From Sulfurovum sp. (GTDB lineage Bacteria; Campylobacterota; Campylobacteria; Campylobacterales; Sulfurovaceae), in assembly GCA_026193735.1 (NCBI GenBank), contig JAPHUJ010000044.1:1-11994 (forward strand): a DNA stretch of 11,994 nt, given 5' to 3'. This document shows, piece after piece, positions 1,763 to 11,994 of this stretch (the first letter of the stretch is position 1; each line of letters opens with the position of its first letter). The notes under the pieces were generated by a model. The model searched no databases, had not been told where the DNA came from, and was given only the letters and a program-made list of their open reading frames with translations. The position numbers were made by a program, and so were the translations under genes.

Positions 1763-2524
1763 CTACTTAAGTACCTCAAAGGGTCTTAATCCACTTGCAT
1801 TGACTTCTTTCTCTTCTTCACAACAGTTAAGTACAGATTTTTCCGGGTTTTCTATAAAGTCGTACCCTCTATATATAGTGTGAATACCAAATAGAATAAC
1901 TACAATAGAAGCCAGGTTCATCATCACTTTTCGAAATGCGCTTTTACCAAGAAGCTGTGTAAAGAATCCCAGACTAAAAAGTGCAGGTACTGTACTGATA
2001 CCAAAGGTAAGCATCACAAGTGCTCCCCAAAGAGGACTGCCTGTACTTGCAGCGGTTACAGCAAAAAAGTAGACCAAGCCACAAGGCAAAAGACCATTGA
2101 GAAGCCCTAAAATATAAAAACTATAAAGTGATTTTGACTGTAATACTTGACGGAAAACATTCTGATACCATTTACTTTTAGAAAAAGAATGTTCAAGTTT
2201 TGTCAAGAACTCAATCTTTCCTAAAAGAGATAATCCTGCCAATATCATAAAGATACCTGCGATAATAGTAAGTGCTGCCGTAGTGTAGCCGTTAAACTGT
2301 GCCACCCCACCAATGGCTCCAAAAATGGCTCCCAGCATGACATAGGTTGTAATACGTCCAAAGGAATACACAAGATGTGCAAAGCTCTGCATGAGATTAG
2401 ACCATTTATCATCCACCTTTCTACTGCTATAAGCAATGACTATACCTCCGCACATCCCTATACAGTGTCCAAAAGAACCTAAAAAAGCGATCGTCGCAAT
2501 AGAAAACATATCAATACTTTCCAT
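1763..2524 (-). CDS. TauE/SafE family (DsbD_2-type) integral membrane protein
   Basis: This 253-residue polytopic membrane protein has GSFGHCIGMCGG (16-27) in helix 1 and NGLLPCGLVYFF (143-154) in the middle helix, the twin half-motifs of the cytochrome c biogenesis transmembrane/'sulfite exporter TauE/SafE' group (DsbD_2-like). Cys21, Cys25 and Cys148 are the conserved cysteines. About six hydrophobic helices are visible. After the last helix comes a soluble tail with NCCEEEKE (Cys234, Cys235), an additional candidate metal or thiol site. Members of this group are linked to copper handling, oxidase maturation or transmembrane electron transfer; the exact cargo is unproven. It is the last gene of the eight-gene block: its ATG follows the stop codon of the preceding NosL-like gene with no gap, so translation is probably coupled. 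No hairpin with a T-run follows it; the next gene is convergent. Confidence 0.85.
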   Translation of the reverse strand: MESIDMFSIATIAFLGSFGHCIGMCGGIVIAYSSRKVDDKWSNLMQSFAHLVYSFGRITTYVMLGAIFGAIGGVAQFNGYTTAALTIIAGIFMILAGLSLLGKIEFLTKLEHSFSKSKWYQNVFRQVLQSKSLYSFYILGLLNGLLPCGLVYFFAVTAASTGSPLWGALVMLTFGISTVPALFSLGFFTQLLGKSAFRKVMMNLASIVVILFGIHTIYRGYDFIENPEKSVLNCCEEEKEVNASGLRPFEVLK

Positions 2525-3028
2525 CTATGTTCCCAATAACTTTTTTCTTATTTTTGGGTTAGCCAAATTTTCACCTCTCAACATGCGAAGCTGCATTTCT
2601 GAAAAGTCTATAGTATCTTCAATTTTATGTTCTCTTGCTCCAAACCCATATTGCATTGCTGTTTTGTCTTTTACTCCATACCATGCAGTTTTGGCATCTA
2701 TCCATTTATCAGTATCGATCGTGTAGACCCATATTTTTGCATCTTCTTTAAACGATTTGTCTTCCAACCATAAGATCATACAGCCCGGATCATCAAAGAA
2801 CCATGTTTTCCCATCAGGAGCAACCACTTGTAGACTGTTTCTCTTTGTTGTGATAAGCATCTTGCAGTATGAATCATTGGTAAAATTTACCTTGATGGGC
2901 AAGGCCTTCATCTGTATGTTGTTCTTTACGACAGTTATGGGTTGTGTGTCTTTGGCCATCGAAACAAAAATAATAGCAATAATACTAATGATTACAAAGA
3001 TGACAAGCAGGGGTAAAAGTTTCTTCAT
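2525..3028 (-). CDS. Divergent membrane-anchored NosL-like protein
   Basis: I start this at the ATG at 3028 (MKKLLPLL), which has GGAG 5 nt upstream; a longer frame to 3091 would overlap the preceding gene and lacks such a site. The 167-residue product has one N-terminal helix (about 4-24), then a periplasmic domain. That domain retains the order of NosL features in reduced form: YCKML (54-58; Cys55 and Met57 in place of CxxCGM), WFFDDPGCMILW (76-87), DTDKWIDAKTAWYG (105-118), and TAMQYGFGA (123-131). The last two line up with TDFYTLKVINARKAFYVV and TTLKFIDVLRSWYVV in the two other NosL proteins of the block. NosL binds Cu(I) for N2O reductase maturation; here Cys55, Met57, Cys83 and Met84 are candidate ligands. 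It would usually be called hypothetical; the NosL relation is my reading of the pattern. Confidence 0.72.
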   Translation of the reverse strand: MKKLLPLLVIFVIISIIAIIFVSMAKDTQPITVVKNNIQMKALPIKVNFTNDSYCKMLITTKRNSLQVVAPDGKTWFFDDPGCMILWLEDKSFKEDAKIWVYTIDTDKWIDAKTAWYGVKDKTAMQYGFGAREHKIEDTIDFSEMQLRMLRGENLANPKIRKKLLGT

Positions 3029-3039
3029 AAAGACTCCAT

Positions 3040-4008
3040 TTATAATAATACACCATTTCTCAGGTAGTAAACTGCCACATATGCTGTGCATAATAGCACA
3101 AACAAGCTAAGCAACCATACAACAATATTTTTCGACTTAGGATCTGTTTTTCCTAACCATAGAGTAGAGATAGCATCACTTAATCCTATATATGTTCCCA
3201 TAAAAAGTGATGCCCATAAAAGGTACCCTACATAAGCATACTCTGCCTGTAACATACAAAATGGACATTTATGCGTAGGAAGTTGGTAAACATATGTACC
3301 AAAAAAGTAAACTACCGCATAGTAAGCGATATAAACAAAAAGTATATTCGTAAGTATATAAAGTAATGTGTACCCACTTTTAAGGCTTAAAATGACCAAA
3401 ATATAGAGCAAATAAAATAATACTAACAGTAACGAGACAGATAAACCAAAGGGAAGGGGGTTAGCACCTTCAAGTTGACCAAAAAGTGCCGAACAGCAGC
3501 TTACAGGCAGATGCGTGTCTATGTTTGAAAAGTAACTAAAGTCTAAGCCTAACTCCAAAACAATGAACACAAAGATAAGGCTAAAAAGCCATGACTTATG
3601 CTTGAACCATTGATGGTTTTTAGTACGCATATCATAATAGTGTATATAGAACCAAAGGGTCAATAAAAAGAGTATGGATAATTTTAATACTAAAAGATAT
3701 GAACCGTATACGTTGGCTTTTATGACTCCTGCACCACACATGGCACCGGGCAACAAAAGCGACAATGCATCTATACTGAAAATAAAATAGACGACCAAAA
3801 TAAACTTCATCACAAAGACAAAAAGAATAATGGTACTCACCAAATAAGCCTGTCTTTCTAAAGCAAACTGAAATGGCATGAAGCTCTCAAAATCCCATTT
3901 AACCAAAACTTTTAAGGATACAACAAACGCAACAAGAAGCAGGATAAAAAGTGTAGATTCACTGAGGAGAAAGACAATGATCTGATTTGAGAGAAGTACT
4001 TCATTCAT
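3040..4008 (-). CDS. Cys-rich polytopic membrane protein of unknown function
   Basis: The 322-residue product has about eight hydrophobic helices (roughly 14-36, 54-76, 104-123, 139-156, 186-208, 217-237, 255-277, 296-316). Basic loops (MRTKNHQWFKHK around 127-138 and KTDPKSK around 287-293) put loops 1, 3, 5 and 7 in the cytoplasm. The remaining loops carry all the loop cysteines: GAMCGAG (Cys91), PVSCCSALFG (Cys171, Cys172) and THKCPFCML (Cys248, Cys251). The CPFC pair recalls thiol-disulfide or metal-binding CxxC sites, as in DsbB/VKOR-like proteins, but I cannot place it in either family. Its ATG at 4008 has AAAGGTG just upstream, directly after the ATPase stop (10-nt gap), and the next gene starts 11 nt after it. 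I infer a role in the block's envelope metal or thiol chemistry; the function is not known. Confidence 0.78.
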   Translation of the reverse strand: MNEVLLSNQIIVFLLSESTLFILLLVAFVVSLKVLVKWDFESFMPFQFALERQAYLVSTIILFVFVMKFILVVYFIFSIDALSLLLPGAMCGAGVIKANVYGSYLLVLKLSILFLLTLWFYIHYYDMRTKNHQWFKHKSWLFSLIFVFIVLELGLDFSYFSNIDTHLPVSCCSALFGQLEGANPLPFGLSVSLLLVLFYLLYILVILSLKSGYTLLYILTNILFVYIAYYAVVYFFGTYVYQLPTHKCPFCMLQAEYAYVGYLLWASLFMGTYIGLSDAISTLWLGKTDPKSKNIVVWLLSLFVLLCTAYVAVYYLRNGVLL

Positions 4009-4018
4009 CAGAACACCT

Positions 4019-4699
4019 TTAACCTATCATGCCATCGACCATAGGTATGACGGTACTCTCAAATGATAAGCTATCAAACAAAGGATCATGAGTAGCAATT
4101 ACGATGGTTTTGCCCATGCGATGTAACTCGCCGAGTATCTCGATGAATAACAGTGAATTGTCTCTGTCAAGATTGGCAGTGGGCTCGTCACAAAGAATGA
4201 TGTTCGGGCTGGCTACTAACGCTCTAGCGATTGCTGTACGCTGTTTCTCTCCACCAGATAGCCTGCTTGCCAAGACTTCTTTTTTATGCATGATGTTTGC
4301 AACTTTCAGTGCATCATCCACTTTTTCATGTATCTCTTTCATTTTTAATCCAGAAGGAATAAGAGGGATAGTGACATTTTCATTTACAGACAAATGTTCA
4401 AAAAGATTGAAATGCTGAAAGATCATACCTATCTTTTTGGCACGTAGTTCGGAAGCAAATAGATCTGGCAGTTTACTTATGGGTTCACCTTCTATGAGGA
4501 CTTTACCTGAACTGGGTTTGTCAAGTCCTGCTATAAGCGAGAGAAGGGTTGTTTTACCACTGCCACTCACACCTTTCAGTACGACACACTCACCTTGTCC
4601 TATGCTTAGGTTTATATCTTTAAGCACGGGCATTGCATTACCCGCATGGTGAAATGTTCTATAGAGGTTTTCTATCTGTATCATCGTCTTATTACTCAT
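4019..4699 (-). CDS. ABC transporter ATP-binding protein, LolD/MacB type
   Basis: All catalytic parts of an ABC ATPase are present in 226 residues: Walker A GVSGSGKT (43-50), Q-loop Gln95 in IFQHFNLF, signature LSGGEKQR (147-154), Walker B IILCDEP (167-173) followed by TANLD, and the switch His204 in ATHD. The length and the phrase DEPTANLD are typical of the LolD/MacB/FtsE branch, whose members power an FtsX-type permease in mechanotransmission or lipoprotein release rather than solute import. Its start codon overlaps the permease stop as ATGA (4 nt), so the two are translationally coupled and surely form one complex. This differs from NosF, which is longer and works with a NosY-type permease. 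The substrate cannot be read from the ATPase; context suggests a partner among the NosL-like envelope proteins. Confidence 0.95.
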   Translation of the reverse strand: MSNKTMIQIENLYRTFHHAGNAMPVLKDINLSIGQGECVVLKGVSGSGKTTLLSLIAGLDKPSSGKVLIEGEPISKLPDLFASELRAKKIGMIFQHFNLFEHLSVNENVTIPLIPSGLKMKEIHEKVDDALKVANIMHKKEVLASRLSGGEKQRTAIARALVASPNIILCDEPTANLDRDNSLLFIEILGELHRMGKTIVIATHDPLFDSLSFESTVIPMVDGMIG

Positions 4700-5874
4700 A
4701 GCATGGCCTCTTTGGGCTCAGTTACAGAGACTCTCCATACAGGTATCAATACTGCTGCTATGAATGGCAGAGCATAGATAAGAAAAATAGAAGTCAGTAC
4801 TGAAAAGTCAAGCACCGGAACAAATGTTAGTGTGTTCTGTAAGTTTTGACCACCTAAAAAAACTTCTTTAAGTAAGGGTGCACCCAAAACAAAAACATAC
4901 ACATATGCGAAGAATACACCTAAGATATAAGAGGCAAATACTATGACAAGTGTCTCAGTGAATTTAAATTTCAACACATCGTTAATACTCCATCCCAGTG
5001 CACGCAGTAAACCTATATTCCGTCGTTCTGAAGAGTAGACCATGCTGTAACGTTGGTAGAGTATTAAAGTAAAAGTACTCAACACGACTAAAAAGAGGAT
5101 AAGAAATAGACCTCCTTTATAGTTGTAGAGGTTTTCATAGGATTTTTGTACATCTTTTTTATTGACTACTTGAAGATCATAATGCAAGGCAGAGACTTTG
5201 TCGGTCATCATGTCCCACTCATCCGGATTAGGAACGTTAAACGTAATGTCTGATACCTCTTCTTCACTATATCCTAAGATTTTTCGGGCCAAGTCTATGG
5301 GCATGACCATCATGTCATTGGCTATGAGATTACTTTGGAAGGGAAGGGTTTTAAAAATATTTACTTTTTCAAAGGTTCCCTCAGGTGTTAAAAAATTGTA
5401 ATCATCTTTGTAAAAGTGTGCATCCAAATATGTCTTTACACCTTCTCCTACTAACATTTTACTACCATTCAAAAAGGCTTTGATGTCGGTTTTGGCTATA
5501 AGTTTTTGAAGATTTTCATGGCTTTGTTCTTCAAGAAAATCTACACCAACTATAAGAAAAGATCTCTCTTTAGCTTTAAAAAAATATCGCCCATAGACTC
5601 TTTGGATCACATTACTCACACCATAGATATCAATAAGTTCATCTTCCCATATCATAGGGGTAGGGACAGATATACCACCTTGTACACGTGAGACTACAAA
5701 GTCTGGTTGAACCTTTAAAGTCTCTTCTAAAGAAAAACGTATGGAAGAAGAGATAAAAAGTACAGAAGAAAGTAAAAAAAGTATCATCGCTGATATCACG
5801 ATCACGCTTAAGTGTTTACTTCGTTCTTTAAAAAGTTGAAGGGTGAGGAAGTGCCAAAAAGCATTAGCGTTCAT
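4696..5874 (-). CDS. ABC transporter permease, FtsX/MacB-type
   Basis: The 392-residue protein has the MacB/FtsX plan: one helix near the N-terminus (about 22-45), a large periplasmic domain (about 46-253), then three helices (about 254-274, 307-330, 358-380). The sequence SSERRNIGLLRALGWS (281-296) after the second helix is the coupling segment typical of FtsX-domain permeases, and the C-terminal VTEPKEAML corresponds to the usual '..P..AL' end. The periplasmic domain shows no cysteine, so it is not itself an obvious metal site. The ATG at 5874 sits inside the end of the 77-aa gene (11-nt overlap) with GGA about 8 nt upstream. It pairs with the ATPase encoded just downstream. In known relatives the periplasmic domain works with a periplasmic or lipoprotein partner; here the NosL-like proteins and the small anchored protein are the candidates. 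Confidence 0.92.
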   Translation of the reverse strand: MNANAFWHFLTLQLFKERSKHLSVIVISAMILFLLSSVLFISSSIRFSLEETLKVQPDFVVSRVQGGISVPTPMIWEDELIDIYGVSNVIQRVYGRYFFKAKERSFLIVGVDFLEEQSHENLQKLIAKTDIKAFLNGSKMLVGEGVKTYLDAHFYKDDYNFLTPEGTFEKVNIFKTLPFQSNLIANDMMVMPIDLARKILGYSEEEVSDITFNVPNPDEWDMMTDKVSALHYDLQVVNKKDVQKSYENLYNYKGGLFLILFLVVLSTFTLILYQRYSMVYSSERRNIGLLRALGWSINDVLKFKFTETLVIVFASYILGVFFAYVYVFVLGAPLLKEVFLGGQNLQNTLTFVPVLDFSVLTSIFLIYALPFIAAVLIPVWRVSVTEPKEAML

Positions 5875-6097
5875 AAACGAAATCCATTCTGCCCAATGCC
5901 GTCATTTCAGGGTAGGTACTATTATAAACTGACTCATCGTAGCCTACACTTAAAGAGAGGTGTGTCATATGTGTAAGTGCGGTCATCTCTTGCATGGTTT
6001 TTGTGGCTTTACTATAAGGGAAAAGTCCGTAATGTAAGCTCATAGAAAATAACAAGATAACCAATAAGACGGCAAAAGCTACAAAAGGTTTTATCAA
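5864..6097 (-). CDS. Small membrane-anchored Met/His-containing protein
   Basis: The start is a TTG at 6097 preceded by AGGAA 6 nt upstream; the ribosome site lies in the 16-nt gap after the NosL stop. The 77-residue product has one helix (about 5-21) and a ~55-residue tail that should be periplasmic. The tail contains EMTALTHM (37-44) and EMTALGRM (64-71), an internal repeat of EMTALxxM, plus His43 and His46 in between. The methionines and histidines would suit Cu(I) or Cu(II) binding, but this is inference. Its end overlaps the permease start by 11 nt, which supports it being translated and linked to the transporter. I do not recognise a family; the tight coupling, signal-anchor and repeat are the only evidence that it is a real and relevant protein. 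Confidence 0.72.
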   Translation of the reverse strand: MIKPFVAFAVLLVILLFSMSLHYGLFPYSKATKTMQEMTALTHMTHLSLSVGYDESVYNSTYPEMTALGRMDFVYER

Positions 6098-6113
6098 ACG
6101 TATTTCCTATGAA

Positions 6114-6821
6114 TTATTCGGTATATTCTAAACCATCAAGCCCCATAACGAGCTTGGGTGTGATATCATCAAAGCTGATGATCTTCTCACCTCTATGATC
6201 AGTCATAAAGTTTTGTGCTGCCTCTTTGGTAAGAAAAGGTATGAGCTCATTACCCATAGGACCATAGACATCTGAACCTACAACATAAAAAGCTTTACGT
6301 GCATTTATCACTTTAAGCGTATAAAAGTCTGTAACCTCGATGTGAACTATTTTGCTTCTATCATAAGGGAAATCTATGTCGAAGATGTAAAACTTCATCA
6401 TATCTTTTACACCATCAAAATAGTGCTTTTCAATTATATCCTTTTTGGCTGCTATTTCTATGCGTGCAGCCCATTTAGGATACTTAGAGACAAACATACC
6501 ACAAACAGGACATTTAACTGCTTTAGGGACATCCATTTCTCCTTTAACATCTGTCAAATTCTCTGACTGACCGGCCATGAGAAAATAGGCTAAGGCTTCT
6601 TTGTTTCGCGCATTGAGTGTAATACACGGTTTTATGGTTTCAATCTGTTGAAGGATATCATGGAGTTGTTCACTTTTAATTTGGGATAGTTTATTTTCAT
6701 CACAAAGTTTTAATGCCACTTTCTCACCCCTCTGAACAAGCTTGGCATATTTGGAAGGGGAGAGTCCTTCAGCATATACTAGCCCAAAAATTAAAAAAGC
6801 AGCTAAGAAAATCTGTTTCAC
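6114..6821 (-). CDS. NosL-family protein with N-terminal two-cysteine domain
   Basis: The GTG at 6821 follows the previous gene by 8 nt; the ribosome site is weak (AAGTAAGA). The 235-residue product starts with a signal peptide (cleavage after about residue 17, LVYA|EGLS). Residues about 29-83 form an extra domain with Cys40 and Cys66: QRGEKVALKLC, then KPC and EALAYFLMAG. The NosL domain follows: CPVCGMFVSKYP (104-115), YFDGVKDMMKFY (136-147), TDFYTLKVINARKAFYVVG (164-182), GPMG (187-190), and AAQNF with GEKIISFDD. The usual second-motif Cys (FDSxxCM) is Asp here, so the Cu(I) site would rest on CxxCGM and Met residues. NosL delivers Cu(I) for N2O reductase in bacteria that have NosZ, but no nosZ is seen in this window, so I give no gene symbol. 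It is the second gene of the block and a paralogue of the first. Confidence 0.9.
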   Translation of the reverse strand: MKQIFLAAFLIFGLVYAEGLSPSKYAKLVQRGEKVALKLCDENKLSQIKSEQLHDILQQIETIKPCITLNARNKEALAYFLMAGQSENLTDVKGEMDVPKAVKCPVCGMFVSKYPKWAARIEIAAKKDIIEKHYFDGVKDMMKFYIFDIDFPYDRSKIVHIEVTDFYTLKVINARKAFYVVGSDVYGPMGNELIPFLTKEAAQNFMTDHRGEKIISFDDITPKLVMGLDGLEYTE

Positions 6822-6829
6822 CGGGAATC

Positions 6830-7555
6830 TTACTTGTTACGTAAGTTTAAGTAAATACCGATTGCTTGTAGTTGCCCACCTTCAATATCACCACAAGGTT
6901 TTTGTGTTGTTAAGTATGTTTTAGCTTCAGCAGTACTGGTAAAATTTACATCTACAGGCGTACACATATTTTTATACATCATTTCACCTTTTTGCGCAAC
7001 CATAGCCTGCTTTTCATGTATCATAGCACTCTCAGTTGCAAGAGTACTTTTTACAGAATCCAAAACAGCATAAAATGTCATCACTTTTCCACCAAACTCT
7101 TTCGCAAATTTTTCAGCATCAGACTTTTTACCAAAAGCATATTTGCTGGTCATGCTCATAGTACCAGGTTTAGTACTGCCCACTACATACCATGATCTTA
7201 GTACATCTATAAACTTGAGAGTAGTATTATCAACCACTTTAATTCCAGTCACTTTCACACCATCAGCCATTCTTTCAGCCAAACAGTGAATAGAACAAAA
7301 CTGCTCTACCTTACCATCTACATTAGCAGCATGATTTGTCTTATAGAACATTGGAAGTGTCATTCCACATTTAGGACAATACATTTTGTTTTCACCCTCT
7401 TGGAGTATTTGCGCTTTATCGGAAGAGACGGCCTGAAATTGCATAGGCATTTTTTTGCCTGTTTGCGTTTCATTCATCTCTTGCTTCATTTCCTCAGCAA
7501 AACTACTTGAACCTATCATAAACAACGCTGATATAAACATTAACATTTTTTTCAT
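6830..7555 (-). CDS. NosL-family protein with C-terminal two-cysteine domain
   Basis: This first gene of the block starts with ATG at 7555 with AGGA upstream and the promoter at 7586-7615. The 241-residue product has a signal peptide (cleavage after about residue 20, SSSFA|EEMK). A Met-rich linker precedes the NosL-type site MYCPKCGMTLPM (58-69). FCSIHCLAERM (86-96) supplies a second Cys pair (Cys87, Cys91), unlike its neighbour. TTLKFIDVLRSWYVVGST (111-128) and a GGKVMTF end match the NosL core. After residue about 185 comes an extra domain with AQKGEMMYKNMC (187-198), KPC (219-221) and LQAIGIYLNLR, the same pattern seen at the N-terminus of the next protein. Cys60, Cys63, Met65, Cys87 and Cys91 are candidate Cu ligands. 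The role is inferred as copper or other metal delivery in the periplasm; the partner enzyme is not in this window. Confidence 0.88.
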   Translation of the reverse strand: MKKMLMFISALFMIGSSSFAEEMKQEMNETQTGKKMPMQFQAVSSDKAQILQEGENKMYCPKCGMTLPMFYKTNHAANVDGKVEQFCSIHCLAERMADGVKVTGIKVVDNTTLKFIDVLRSWYVVGSTKPGTMSMTSKYAFGKKSDAEKFAKEFGGKVMTFYAVLDSVKSTLATESAMIHEKQAMVAQKGEMMYKNMCTPVDVNFTSTAEAKTYLTTQKPCGDIEGGQLQAIGIYLNLRNK

Positions 7556-7585
7556 AATTCCATCCTATTAATTGTATTTACTTAT

Positions 7586-7615
7586 ATTATAATATTTATG
7601 TTAAATTTGTGTTAA
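7586..7615 (-). promoter_or_regulatory. Sigma70-type promoter of the NosL/ABC operon
   Basis: On the minus strand TTAACA (7615-7610, one mismatch to TTGACA) is followed after 18 nt by a perfect TATAAT (7591-7586). Transcription would start near 7579, giving a leader of about 24 nt before the ATG at 7555. The next seven genes follow with gaps of at most 16 nt, so this promoter could serve the whole block. Confidence 0.7.
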
Positions 7616-7670
7616 AAAAGTAAATATATCGATCTATTCTTCCTATAGTTTATCTGTAAAAATGAGGGTA

Positions 7671-7689
7671 GTGTAAATATAAATTACAC
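7671..7689. repeat. Inverted repeat GTGTAA-N7-TTACAC, operator-like
   Basis: GTGTAA (7671-7676) and TTACAC (7684-7689) are perfect inverted 6-mers around seven AT bases. The centre lies 48 nt upstream of the candidate trkA -10 and about 100 nt upstream of the NosL start site. Symmetry and spacing fit a dimeric regulator such as a CRP/FNR-type protein, but the half-site is not a consensus that I recognise. Confidence 0.5.
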
Positions 7690-7727
7690 CGTATAAAGAT
7701 GAATATCTTTCTGAACGTGAAAAAAGG

Positions 7728-7733
7728 TATAAT
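7728..7733 (+). promoter_or_regulatory. Candidate -10 box for trkAH
   Basis: TATAAT reads on the plus strand within AAAAAAGGTATAATATTGGG. No good -35 hexamer is visible at 16-18 nt. If used, transcription starts near 7740 and leaves a leader of about 138 nt that includes the 7765-7798 inverted repeat. Confidence 0.4.
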
Positions 7734-7764
7734 ATTGGGAATTCAGATACTTAGTTTTTTACTA

Positions 7765-7798
7765 GAATGACAAGTGTCTAGATTATGAGGTGTCATTC
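7765..7798. repeat. Inverted repeat GAATGACA-N18-TGTCATTC
   Basis: The 8-nt arms at 7765-7772 and 7791-7798 are exact reverse complements. Inside, a competing CTAGA (7762-7766) / TCTAG (7777-7781) pairing and a GACA-AG-TGTC motif (7769-7778) overlap it. If the trkA leader is transcribed from about 7740, these could form alternative hairpins; as DNA, three TGTC/GACA half-sites could bind a regulator. No known element is recognised. Confidence 0.45.
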
Positions 7799-7878
7799 CA
7801 ATGTAAAAATTACTTCATTAAAAAAGAGAGAAGTTATATTACGAAAAGAGAATCGTAAATAAACTTAAAAGGGTAAAA

Positions 7879-10731: not shown

Positions 10732-10752
10732 GTAGGTAATATTATTACCTAC
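10732..10752. terminator. Palindrome at the trkH/mfrE junction, possible bidirectional terminator
   Basis: Ten-base arms GTAGGTAATA (10732-10741) and TATTACCTAC (10743-10752) flank one central base, so a hairpin would have a 9-bp stem and 3-nt loop. The right arm covers the TAG stop of mfrE at 10751-10749. Neither side is followed by a T-run (GCAGTATAG on plus, CTTTGTTCCC on minus), so terminator function is uncertain; an operator or mRNA-end stabiliser is an alternative. Confidence 0.45.
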
Positions 10753-11636
10753 GCAGTATAGAGCTGAGTAGCTTTCTGAACATGGAATTTAAGTCCTATC
10801 TCTTTTTCTGTACAGCCAAGAGCTAGTGCGACCATTTGTGGCATGTGTAGCACTGGGAGTTCTACATCACGACCCATGACTTTACCGATGCTGTCTTGGT
10901 ACGTATCCATTTTGAGGTGACAAAGAGGACATGGTGTTACCATTATATCAGCGTTGTTGTCCATAGCATCAAGTAGGGCATTACCTGCCAATACTTCTGA
11001 AGTGTGGTTTGCCTGAAGTTCTACATGGAAACCACAACATTTATTTTTACTCTCATAGTTCACCGGGTTACCCTCAAGTGCGTCTATCAGACGGTCAAGT
11101 GAATTAGGTGTATATGGGTTTTCGTGTCCATTTGAATCTTCGTGTAACTCAGAGGGTCTGATGTTATGACAACCATAAAATGGGGCGATGTTCAAGTGAC
11201 TAAGTGGCACGGTAACTTTCTCTTTAACATTCTCCAAACCATACTCATCTATGATAGCATAGAGGAAGTGTTTGATCTCAGATGTACCTTTATACTCCAG
11301 TCCCACTTCTGCTAATTTTTCATTTACACGAGCTTTTAGTTCAGGGTTAGTGTCTAAAGCATGTTTGGTCATAGCAGAGTTAAGCTGACAGGTATTACAG
11401 ATAGTGATCATCGTTAGACCCAGTTTTTCTGCGTAACAGATGTTTCTAGCGTTAAGAACGTGCGCTAAAAACTCGTCAAAGTCTTGTAGGTGACTCGCAC
11501 CACAACAAGATGCTTCTTCTAAAATCGTGATTTTTATACCTAATTTATCAGCTACTGCAAGAGTAGATGAAAGCAACTCAGGTGTAGATTGTTTTGCTGT
11601 ACACCCTGTAAATAATGCATAATGTAATTGGCTCAT
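10749..11636 (-). CDS. mfrE: Fumarate reductase/succinate dehydrogenase subunit E, HdrB-like (two CCG domains)
   Basis: The 295-residue product has two cysteine-rich CCG domains. The first has Cys12, Cys44-Cys45 (SCCGASH) and Cys80/Cys83 (ICNTCQ); the second has Cys156 (YGCHN), Cys200-Cys201 (KCCGFHVELQ) and Cys236/Cys239 (TPCPLC). In heterodisulfide reductase HdrB such domains hold noncubane [4Fe-4S] clusters. In Campylobacterota the same protein is subunit E of the methylmenaquinol:fumarate reductase (formerly sdhC/sdhE), which replaces the haem membrane anchor of classical complexes. No transmembrane helix is visible, consistent with that type. The ATG at 11636 has AAGGAG upstream, and the iron-sulfur subunit gene ends 9 nt before it. 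Whether the enzyme works as fumarate reductase or succinate dehydrogenase in this organism cannot be read from the sequence. Confidence 0.92.
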   Translation of the reverse strand: MSQLHYALFTGCTAKQSTPELLSSTLAVADKLGIKITILEEASCCGASHLQDFDEFLAHVLNARNICYAEKLGLTMITICNTCQLNSAMTKHALDTNPELKARVNEKLAEVGLEYKGTSEIKHFLYAIIDEYGLENVKEKVTVPLSHLNIAPFYGCHNIRPSELHEDSNGHENPYTPNSLDRLIDALEGNPVNYESKNKCCGFHVELQANHTSEVLAGNALLDAMDNNADIMVTPCPLCHLKMDTYQDSIGKVMGRDVELPVLHMPQMVALALGCTEKEIGLKFHVQKATQLYTA

Positions 11637-11645
11637 CTTTTCTCC

Positions 11646-11994
11646 TTACAGTTTATTTGTTTGTGAAATTTCAATGAGTTTTTGAAGTTCATCTAAATTT
11701 TTAATTTTTGGAATACTATTAATAAATGGTATACCTGAATGCCAATGGATCTTACCACTTCTCATCATCTTCATCGCTGTACCAATATGTTTATACATAC
11801 CTAAATAACCCTCAGAGTACGTAACAATATCCGCTTCATCCAAGTAACCGGTTTTCTTCATACCTCTTAAGAAACCTTCTGCATGACGAGTAGCTACATT
11901 ACTCTCAGCTACACCATGCACAAATTGTAGATTATGAAGTTTTCCGATTTTTTCAATAGGATTGATCTCTTTTGGACATGCTTCCGCACACTCA
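11646..11994 (-). CDS. mfrB: Fumarate reductase/succinate dehydrogenase iron-sulfur subunit, C-terminal part
   Basis: The frame enters from the right edge (first full codon at 11993) and ends with TAA at 11648-11646, leaving 115 residues. It opens with ECAEACPKEINPIEKIGKLH, where C-x3-CP is the last cysteine motif of the SdhB/FrdB-type ferredoxin domain. The remaining ~100 residues (HGVAESNVATRHAEGFLRG and YSEGYLGMYKHIGTAMKMM) form a long helical C-terminal extension, as in the MfrB/SdhB proteins that work with an HdrB-like subunit E. Since the first methionine-like codon inside the window (GTG at 11921) lies after the cluster motif, it is not the gene start. The flavoprotein subunit is expected upstream, outside the window. 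The gene is co-transcribed with subunit E, 9 nt away. Confidence 0.88.
   Translation of the reverse strand, partial: ECAEACPKEINPIEKIGKLHNLQFVHGVAESNVATRHAEGFLRGMKKTGYLDEADIVTYSEGYLGMYKHIGTAMKMMRSGKIHWHSGIPFINSIPKIKNLDELQKLIEISQTNKL

Follow-up and report, generated by a model that had tools for sequence, protein, structure and literature searches.

Copper reaches the CuZ site of nitrous oxide (N2O) reductase, the heme-copper site of the sulfite reductase MccA and the oxidases by routes that are only partly known. For the N2O reductase NosZ, the ATP-binding cassette (ABC) machine NosDFY together with NosL probably loads the enzyme by release from, or hand-over by, a carrier. PMC6530538 describes NosL as a Cu(I) chaperone and connects its CxM motif with Cu(I) binding. 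The nos clusters of Sulfurospirillum cavolei have five further genes inserted between nosL and nosY, in the order hypothetical, ABC permease, ABC ATPase and two hypotheticals. They were published as additional genes of the nos cluster with no assignment, and the portion of PMC4794192 that was available gives neither a stand-alone copy nor a function. Here we analyse an eight-gene block with NosL-type and ABC genes from Sulfurovum sp. (assembly GCA_026193735.1). The window is the entire contig that carries it (JAPHUJ010000044.1, our C332; 11,994 bases), from a genome (G000) of 1.695 Mb in 357 contigs that is 78.1% complete, and the genes are named A to H by order of transcription. We consider the block probably to be a periplasmic copper-delivery (metallation) module that is used with several cuproenzymes. 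Since relatives carry much of the set beside N2O or sulfite reductase genes, or alone, it appears to be a kit for copper loading that can be reused, and not the leftover of one pathway.

All eight genes lie on the minus strand between positions 1763 and 7555 and are read from 7555 to 1763, with spacings from A to H of 8, 16, −11, −4, 10, 11 and 0 nucleotides. Every frame is open and free of internal stops, so the tightly packed same-strand block of the original prediction stands. When compared to two relatives (L139 and L141; a third, L140, holds E to H only), the ratio of non-synonymous to synonymous differences (pN/pS) is 0.14–0.43 over the eight genes; with synonymous sites close to saturation, this value indicates purifying selection only roughly. 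The spacer between A and the divergent trkA (7556–7878) is, judging by gene layout, probably the promoter region of the block. Both flanks are closed by unrelated genes, as had been claimed: an ADP-ribosylglycohydrolase (Pfam) on one side and trkA/trkH on the other, the latter labelled by reading the sequences with no family scan, as are fabF, accA, DedA, ExbB, ExbD, two-component genes and the CcsA-type lyase wherever they are named. Within the window, no nosZ, nosDFY, mccA or CcsA-type gene stands beside the block.

To describe how widely the block is kept we follow the membrane protein F. Among 298 Campylobacterota genomes sampled, 107 have F, 88 have nosZ and 85 have a relative of MccA (called at E 1e-30); the last group we divided by a split of our own into type I (at least 64% identity; 48 genomes) and type II (46–53%; 37 genomes). 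A separate question raised by the type-II relatives, most of which occur without F, is whether they are copper enzymes at all. Immediately upstream of F stands the ATPase gene in 57/58 places of this phylum set and in 72/78 of a second, named set; permease and ATPase both stand upstream in 54/57 and 68/74, a NosL-type gene lies within 4.2 kilobases (kb) upstream in 39/56 and 43/56, and a G-type gene follows downstream in 33/58 and 56/78. The denominators count the places where the sequence extends far enough to show the gene, with the window excluded, and the named set consists of 82 F frames, some of them pieces of broken frames, in the best 80 of 552 confirmed loci. These counts mark D-E-F as a core whose genes are conserved together, with the NosL genes and H looser; H is found in only a subset of loci. 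Among the best 80 of the 552 loci, 77 are labelled Campylobacterota; the others, all possibly mis-binned, are L209 and L210, from metagenome-assembled genomes labelled Krumholzibacteriota, and L216, labelled only as a bacterium. L209 and L210 hold D-E-F(-H) on their contigs, and may reflect mis-binning or transfer. Among 120 of 844 matches listed, the closest F proteins with an organism name belong to Sulfurovum sp. and to a Campylobacterota bacterium.

F is present in 48/48 genomes with type-I MccA and in 67/88 with nosZ, while 40 of the 107 F genomes have no nosZ (all listed as 98–100% complete, apart from that of the window) and 28, counting the incomplete window genome, lack both nosZ and type-I MccA. 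As the genomes are related, such counts are not independent, and Fisher values, which ignore relatedness, were not used as proof. When considering the 126 F copies by distance on the same contig, with cut-offs of 20 and 30 kb, 47 lie 9.4–13.3 kb from a type-I mccA (two of these also within 30 kb of nosZ), 15 lie 9.9–19.6 kb from nosZ and 64 are near neither, a class inflated by broken assemblies such as G182, where mccA is on a separate contig. Since copies of F also lie near mccA or apart from both enzymes, the block is not simply a nos sub-operon, and the co-occurrence check agrees with the expectation that it would not be tied to nosZ alone. A tree of 59 F proteins puts the 14 mcc copies into one group (support 98/96), whereas the 13 nos-linked and 32 lone copies are intermixed, with 11 changes each; linkage to mcc thus apparently arose a single time, and linkage to nos was gained or lost repeatedly. 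G248 encodes the same F protein twice (L092 and L093), with one copy 10 kb from nosZ and the other on its own, which is a recent duplication. A more far-reaching reading, which we hold less likely than not, is a general, enzyme-independent copper-loading machine of Campylobacterota, made of a LolCDE-type ATPase, NosL-fold carriers and a new five-cysteine relay, F, and placed either beside client genes (for N2O reduction, sulfite reduction or oxidase assembly) or beside an OprC-type receptor, with a client in the lineage of the window other than NosZ and MccA.

In loci of the Sulfurovaceae type, fabF-accA-DedA often closes the block at one end. On the other side of the block there is a nos cluster in, for example, L063–L065, L146, L157, L167, L171 and L203, or a TonB-dependent receptor in L170, L161 and L144, with the receptor adjacent but on the opposite strand in L162 and L066/L067. 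The original prediction of a stand-alone block without nos genes holds for this contig and is not supported more widely, as sister Sulfurovum genomes carry the block directly after the nos cluster and before fabF. We compared the slot between receptor and fabF in eight stretches, one being a contig of the window genome, beside L170 and L063. It contains nos genes and block in G219, the block alone in L170, and nos genes in G264, which has no F in its genome; it is empty in the window genome, in G298 and G300 (which hold L139 and L141), in G285 and in G204. A-B-C-D comes after the receptor in G234, where F-G-fabF lies on a separate contig, and the G299 stretch stops at the receptor. The window genome thus has an assembled slot with neither nos genes nor block, the block being found instead between the ADP-ribosylglycohydrolase gene and trkA, and G298 and G300 are in the same state.

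A displaced nos sub-operon, with nosZ present or recently lost and a block that serves or served N2O reductase only, is the leading alternative, though we regard it as unlikely; the place of the block behind the nos cluster in sister Sulfurovum genomes speaks for it. The window genome gives no match to nosZ, nor to MccA at E 1e-30, but at 78% completeness neither absence is proven; G204 has the same empty slot and nevertheless carries nosZ elsewhere, and G306, G329 and G335 (L147, L171 and L177) have nos genes beside the block with no nosZ match, so that missing nosZ near the window species is no proof in drafts such as these. Against a displaced sub-operon stand the assembled receptor–fabF slot, which has no nos genes inside, the near-complete F genomes that do without nosZ, and the low pN/pS of all eight genes. 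Additionally, nosZ is found in 0/7 of the genomes behind the first seven rows of the named scan by E-value (L139–L145), which include the four most similar F proteins, though the eighth (G305) does have it, as do 17 of the 40 genomes in which nosZ was sought.

The receptor of the slot is part of the case for copper. A scan of all locus frames placed it beside the block in the five places given above only, many stretches being too short to show it. For these five, the best family is TIGR01778, "TonB-dependent copper receptor", at 173–190 bits, below the cut-off of 472. It also lies within 2 kb of a nosZ match in G219, G221, G225 and G264, and in G058 it has the nos genes on one side and the block on the other. 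PMC8610252 gives CxxxM-HxM as the motif of OprC and a contested role for NosA in N2O reductase maturation. The copper ligands CxxxM (plug) and HxM (barrel) are invariant in both sets of receptors that we aligned (6/6 and 12/12, the receptor of the window genome being in both and one further gene shared); leaving that receptor aside, they are intact in 5/5 block-adjacent receptors and 11/11 further matches. The receptor of the window genome, which is on a different contig (C339) from the block, aligns with OprC in the PDB through GACPNRMD at E 1.6e-24, and OprC entries are its only PDB relatives at E 1e-10. At E 1e-90 the receptor is present in 83/298 genomes, 56 of them with F, and the family is thus wider than the block. 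As a separate observation, ExbB-ExbD-TonB-like genes stand close upstream of the unit in L204, L105, L111, L119 and L077, also outside Sulfurovum.

Two of the block proteins are NosL-domain proteins by Pfam (PF05573; gathering cut-off 24 bits). Gene A (6830–7555) encodes 241 amino acids (aa) with CPKCGM and a C-terminal extension that bears two cysteines, and scores 54.6 bits; it is probably secreted, as read from the N-terminus. Gene B (6114–6821; GTG start) encodes a secreted protein of 235 aa with CPVCGM that scores 105.5 bits, and matches the solved NosL 7og7 at E 5.1e-8. In the mcc-type loci L096, L089 and L101 the two are fused to one protein of 349–350 aa with two NosL domains, seen as two Pfam stretches in L096 (349 aa), which argues that A and B act together; in G297, G008 and G003 the NosL genes are placed elsewhere in the genome. 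Gene G (2525–3028, taking the start at 3028 where the listed open reading frame begins at 3091) encodes an anchored NosL-like protein of 167 aa, and a profile of 89 G proteins matches one of 54 B proteins over 111 columns with an HHalign probability of 96.8 (E 2e-10). The CxM motif reads CGM in A and B and CKM in G, and is kept in 47/49 homologues at the upstream A-type position, in 81/95 and 85/90 (G position) of two other sets, and in 8/8 of a small fourth set. A lipobox, the anchor of characterised NosL, was not found in A, B or G by a simple pattern. Elsewhere in the phylum, G235, which we tentatively take to be Sulfurospirillum multivorans, has a tandem NosL gene (C1, 3107402–3108403; 3.107 Mb) unlinked from its F genes at 2.674 and 2.718 Mb. 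PMC6242987 reports the NosL protein SMUL_3232 of that species as 31-fold up in pyruvate-adapted cells; the idea that SMUL_3232 shares an operon with F was dropped and is not used as evidence, since the tandem gene, perhaps SMUL_3232 itself, is unlinked from F.

The membrane protein F (3040–4008; 322 aa, eight helices) has no Pfam match and no confident fold match in the PDB, and its AlphaFold2 model has a predicted local distance difference test (pLDDT) score of 89.8. Cysteines 91, 171, 172, 248 and 251, which include a CC and a CPxC motif, are invariant in 37/37 and 65/65 aligned homologues (overlapping sets), as is H246, and the model places all five on the same side, within three loops. The five cysteines first noted here are thus confirmed, and the side that bears them probably faces the periplasm, as read from charge. 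Gene H (1763–2524; 253 aa) is the predicted GHCxGMCGG membrane protein, with GHCIGMCGG, and is of the DsbD_2 or TauE-like kind (Pfam DsbD_2, E 8.6e-53). With such features in F and H, the pair could instead form a DsbB/DsbD-like membrane relay holding the cysteines of substrates, or heme sites, in the reduced state, as a thiol-disulfide or cytochrome-maturation system to which copper is secondary, and the closeness of the mcc copy to an apparent CcsA-type heme lyase would suit this. The links to copper receptors and NosL speak against it, as does, more weakly, the want of a confident fold match between F and any solved thiol oxidoreductase, and we think it quite improbable. The original prediction had allowed a relay for copper, another thiophilic metal or thiols; copper is now the best supported of these, with the thiol relay as a rival.

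The FtsX/MacB-type permease and its ATPase were correctly recognised. Gene D (4696–5874; 392 aa; Pfam FtsX) is a type VII ABC permease whose fold resembles LolE, LolC and MacB, and gene E (4019–4699; 226 aa; Pfam ABC_tran) has FtsE and LolD as its best NCBIfam families, both below their cut-offs. The block is neither a LolCDE system, having one permease gene only, with TIGR02212 at 45.2 bits against a cut-off of 362.45, nor a MacAB-TolC one, as ATPase and permease are separate genes and no adaptor is found among the block genes. Upstream of the permease in many loci there is a small gene of the C type; C itself (5864–6097; TTG start) encodes an anchored protein of 77 aa with no Pfam match, and is the least conserved of the block at 56–57% identity to L139 and L141. 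The fold of D and the nearest families of E would also fit a MacAB-like efflux or lipoprotein extraction system that carries the NosL-like proteins as cargo and acts in envelope trafficking or the detoxification of copper. Such a role is very improbable: the block genes include neither an outer-membrane channel nor an adaptor of the MacA kind, the simple pattern shows no lipobox in A, B or G, and the neighbours that recur are reductase clusters and an import receptor, no search for resistance genes having been made.

Copper delivery is supported by the linkage to MccA and NosZ, the NosL domains of A and B, the adjacency of the copper receptor with its ligands intact, the retention of that receptor in the window genome and the low pN/pS; we infer copper as the metal from the OprC-type receptor at the usual slot together with the NosZ and MccA linkage. 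A possible order and direction of transfer is then as follows. Copper would enter the periplasm, probably through the TonB-dependent receptor of the OprC/NosA type, whose gene lies elsewhere in the genome, and the NosL-fold proteins A and B would hold Cu(I) through CxM. The anchored G and the five-cysteine F would provide a docking and relay site at the inner membrane, where ATP-driven strokes of a LolCDE/MacB-like D2E2 complex may open or strip the carrier, so that the metal passes to the apo-cuproenzyme, with H probably supplying metal or reducing thiols. In relatives, NosZ or MccA, the heme-copper sulfite reductase, would be the client.

For the window organism, another copper enzyme of respiration is the likeliest client, and heme-copper oxidases of cbb3 or aa3 type are the first candidates. 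Its genome has a caa3-like oxidase operon (L222; contig C214, 527–4318) in which the CuA subunit is fused to two cytochrome c stretches. COX2 exceeds 50 bits in 4/31 genomes checked: that of the window, its near relatives G298 and G300, which have the block, and G285, which has no F; six other COX2 matches over the cut-off adjoin nosZ matches, and the G125 match is below it. As COX2 also occurs in the F-less G285, a caa3/aa3 oxidase was rejected as sole client and kept as a candidate. G298, G300 and G285 each have an equally high-scoring COX1 gene about 6 kb from a second one that is cbb3-like, the latter by a reading of scores. In G167 a second, stand-alone C-D-E-F copy (L097, 431–5918) lies one gene from a FixG/CcoG gene, and its F is very divergent (end branch 2.84–2.97). 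PMC8267372 lists CcoG as a cupric reductase that serves the biogenesis of cbb3. The caa3-like operon and the CcoG neighbour point to oxidases, short of proof.

Several observations weigh against a copper-delivery module. Of the genomes with nosZ, 21/88 lack F, and only 5/37 with type-II MccA have it, so that neither the NosZ nor the MccA class strictly needs F. The receptor is absent at E 1e-90 from 51/107 F genomes, and 27/83 receptor genomes are without F. COX1-type oxidases are found in all of the 31 genomes checked, including four without F (G204, G264, G285 and G139), and co-occurrence thus does not show an oxidase client. Gene G reaches only 15.3 bits with Pfam NosL, below the cut-off; of the three NosL-like proteins first proposed, A and B are upheld by Pfam, and G by the profile comparison and by CxM in 85/90 homologues.

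Away from the block, positions 10749–11993 of the window encode an HdrB/SdhE-like CCG-domain subunit, with the 8-methylmenaquinol:fumarate reductase anchor as best NCBIfam family (under the cut-off), that adjoins a frame cut by the contig end. If the copper-loading module is real, one ATP-driven unit that moves between pathways could be tested as a single machine, and F would be a named candidate for a new membrane copper or thiol site. In either case NosL-plus-ABC genes must not count as evidence of N2O reduction.

Comparison with known systems places the block among them as follows. MccA of G167 matches the solved MccA (4rkm) over all 690 residues, and G167 is therefore taken as Wolinella succinogenes. 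Its mcc cluster has C-D-E-F-G behind a tandem NosL gene (A fused to B), downstream of mccA; the window, in contrast, has no mccA or CcsA-type gene beside the block, A and B are separate, and H is added. The NosL-type gene of this cluster is reportedly called MccL and has reportedly been studied; a search of the literature, mostly outside subscription papers, found nothing on MccL with sulfite. The nosDFYL maturation of clade II N2O reductase likewise combines a NosL-type copper protein with an ABC machine, and the block comes after the nos genes in sister Sulfurovum genomes, but D and E are of a type of ABC machine unrelated to NosDFY. The permease fold of D is shared with the type VII systems LolCDE, MacB, FtsEX and YbbAP, from which the block differs in its single permease gene, its separate ATPase, and partners that are NosL proteins and not LolA, MacA or EnvC. 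Compared to OprC/NosA, the slot receptor keeps CxxxM-HxM and matches OprC in the PDB, though that of the window genome is on another contig and the five relatives fall below the TIGR01778 cut-off. The S. cavolei insertion matches C-D-E-F-G by order and annotation as given in PMC4794192, with gene identity suggested by the order, and L090 and L092 have C-D-E-F-G at the corresponding place between nosL and nosY. With this insertion in print and the unit also in the Wolinella-type mcc cluster, the block cannot be called undescribed, though the same literature search found no account of it as a portable copper module. It thus belongs to a known kind, the maturation of cuproenzymes by NosL with an ABC machine, and is in part new, with an uncharacterised protein F.

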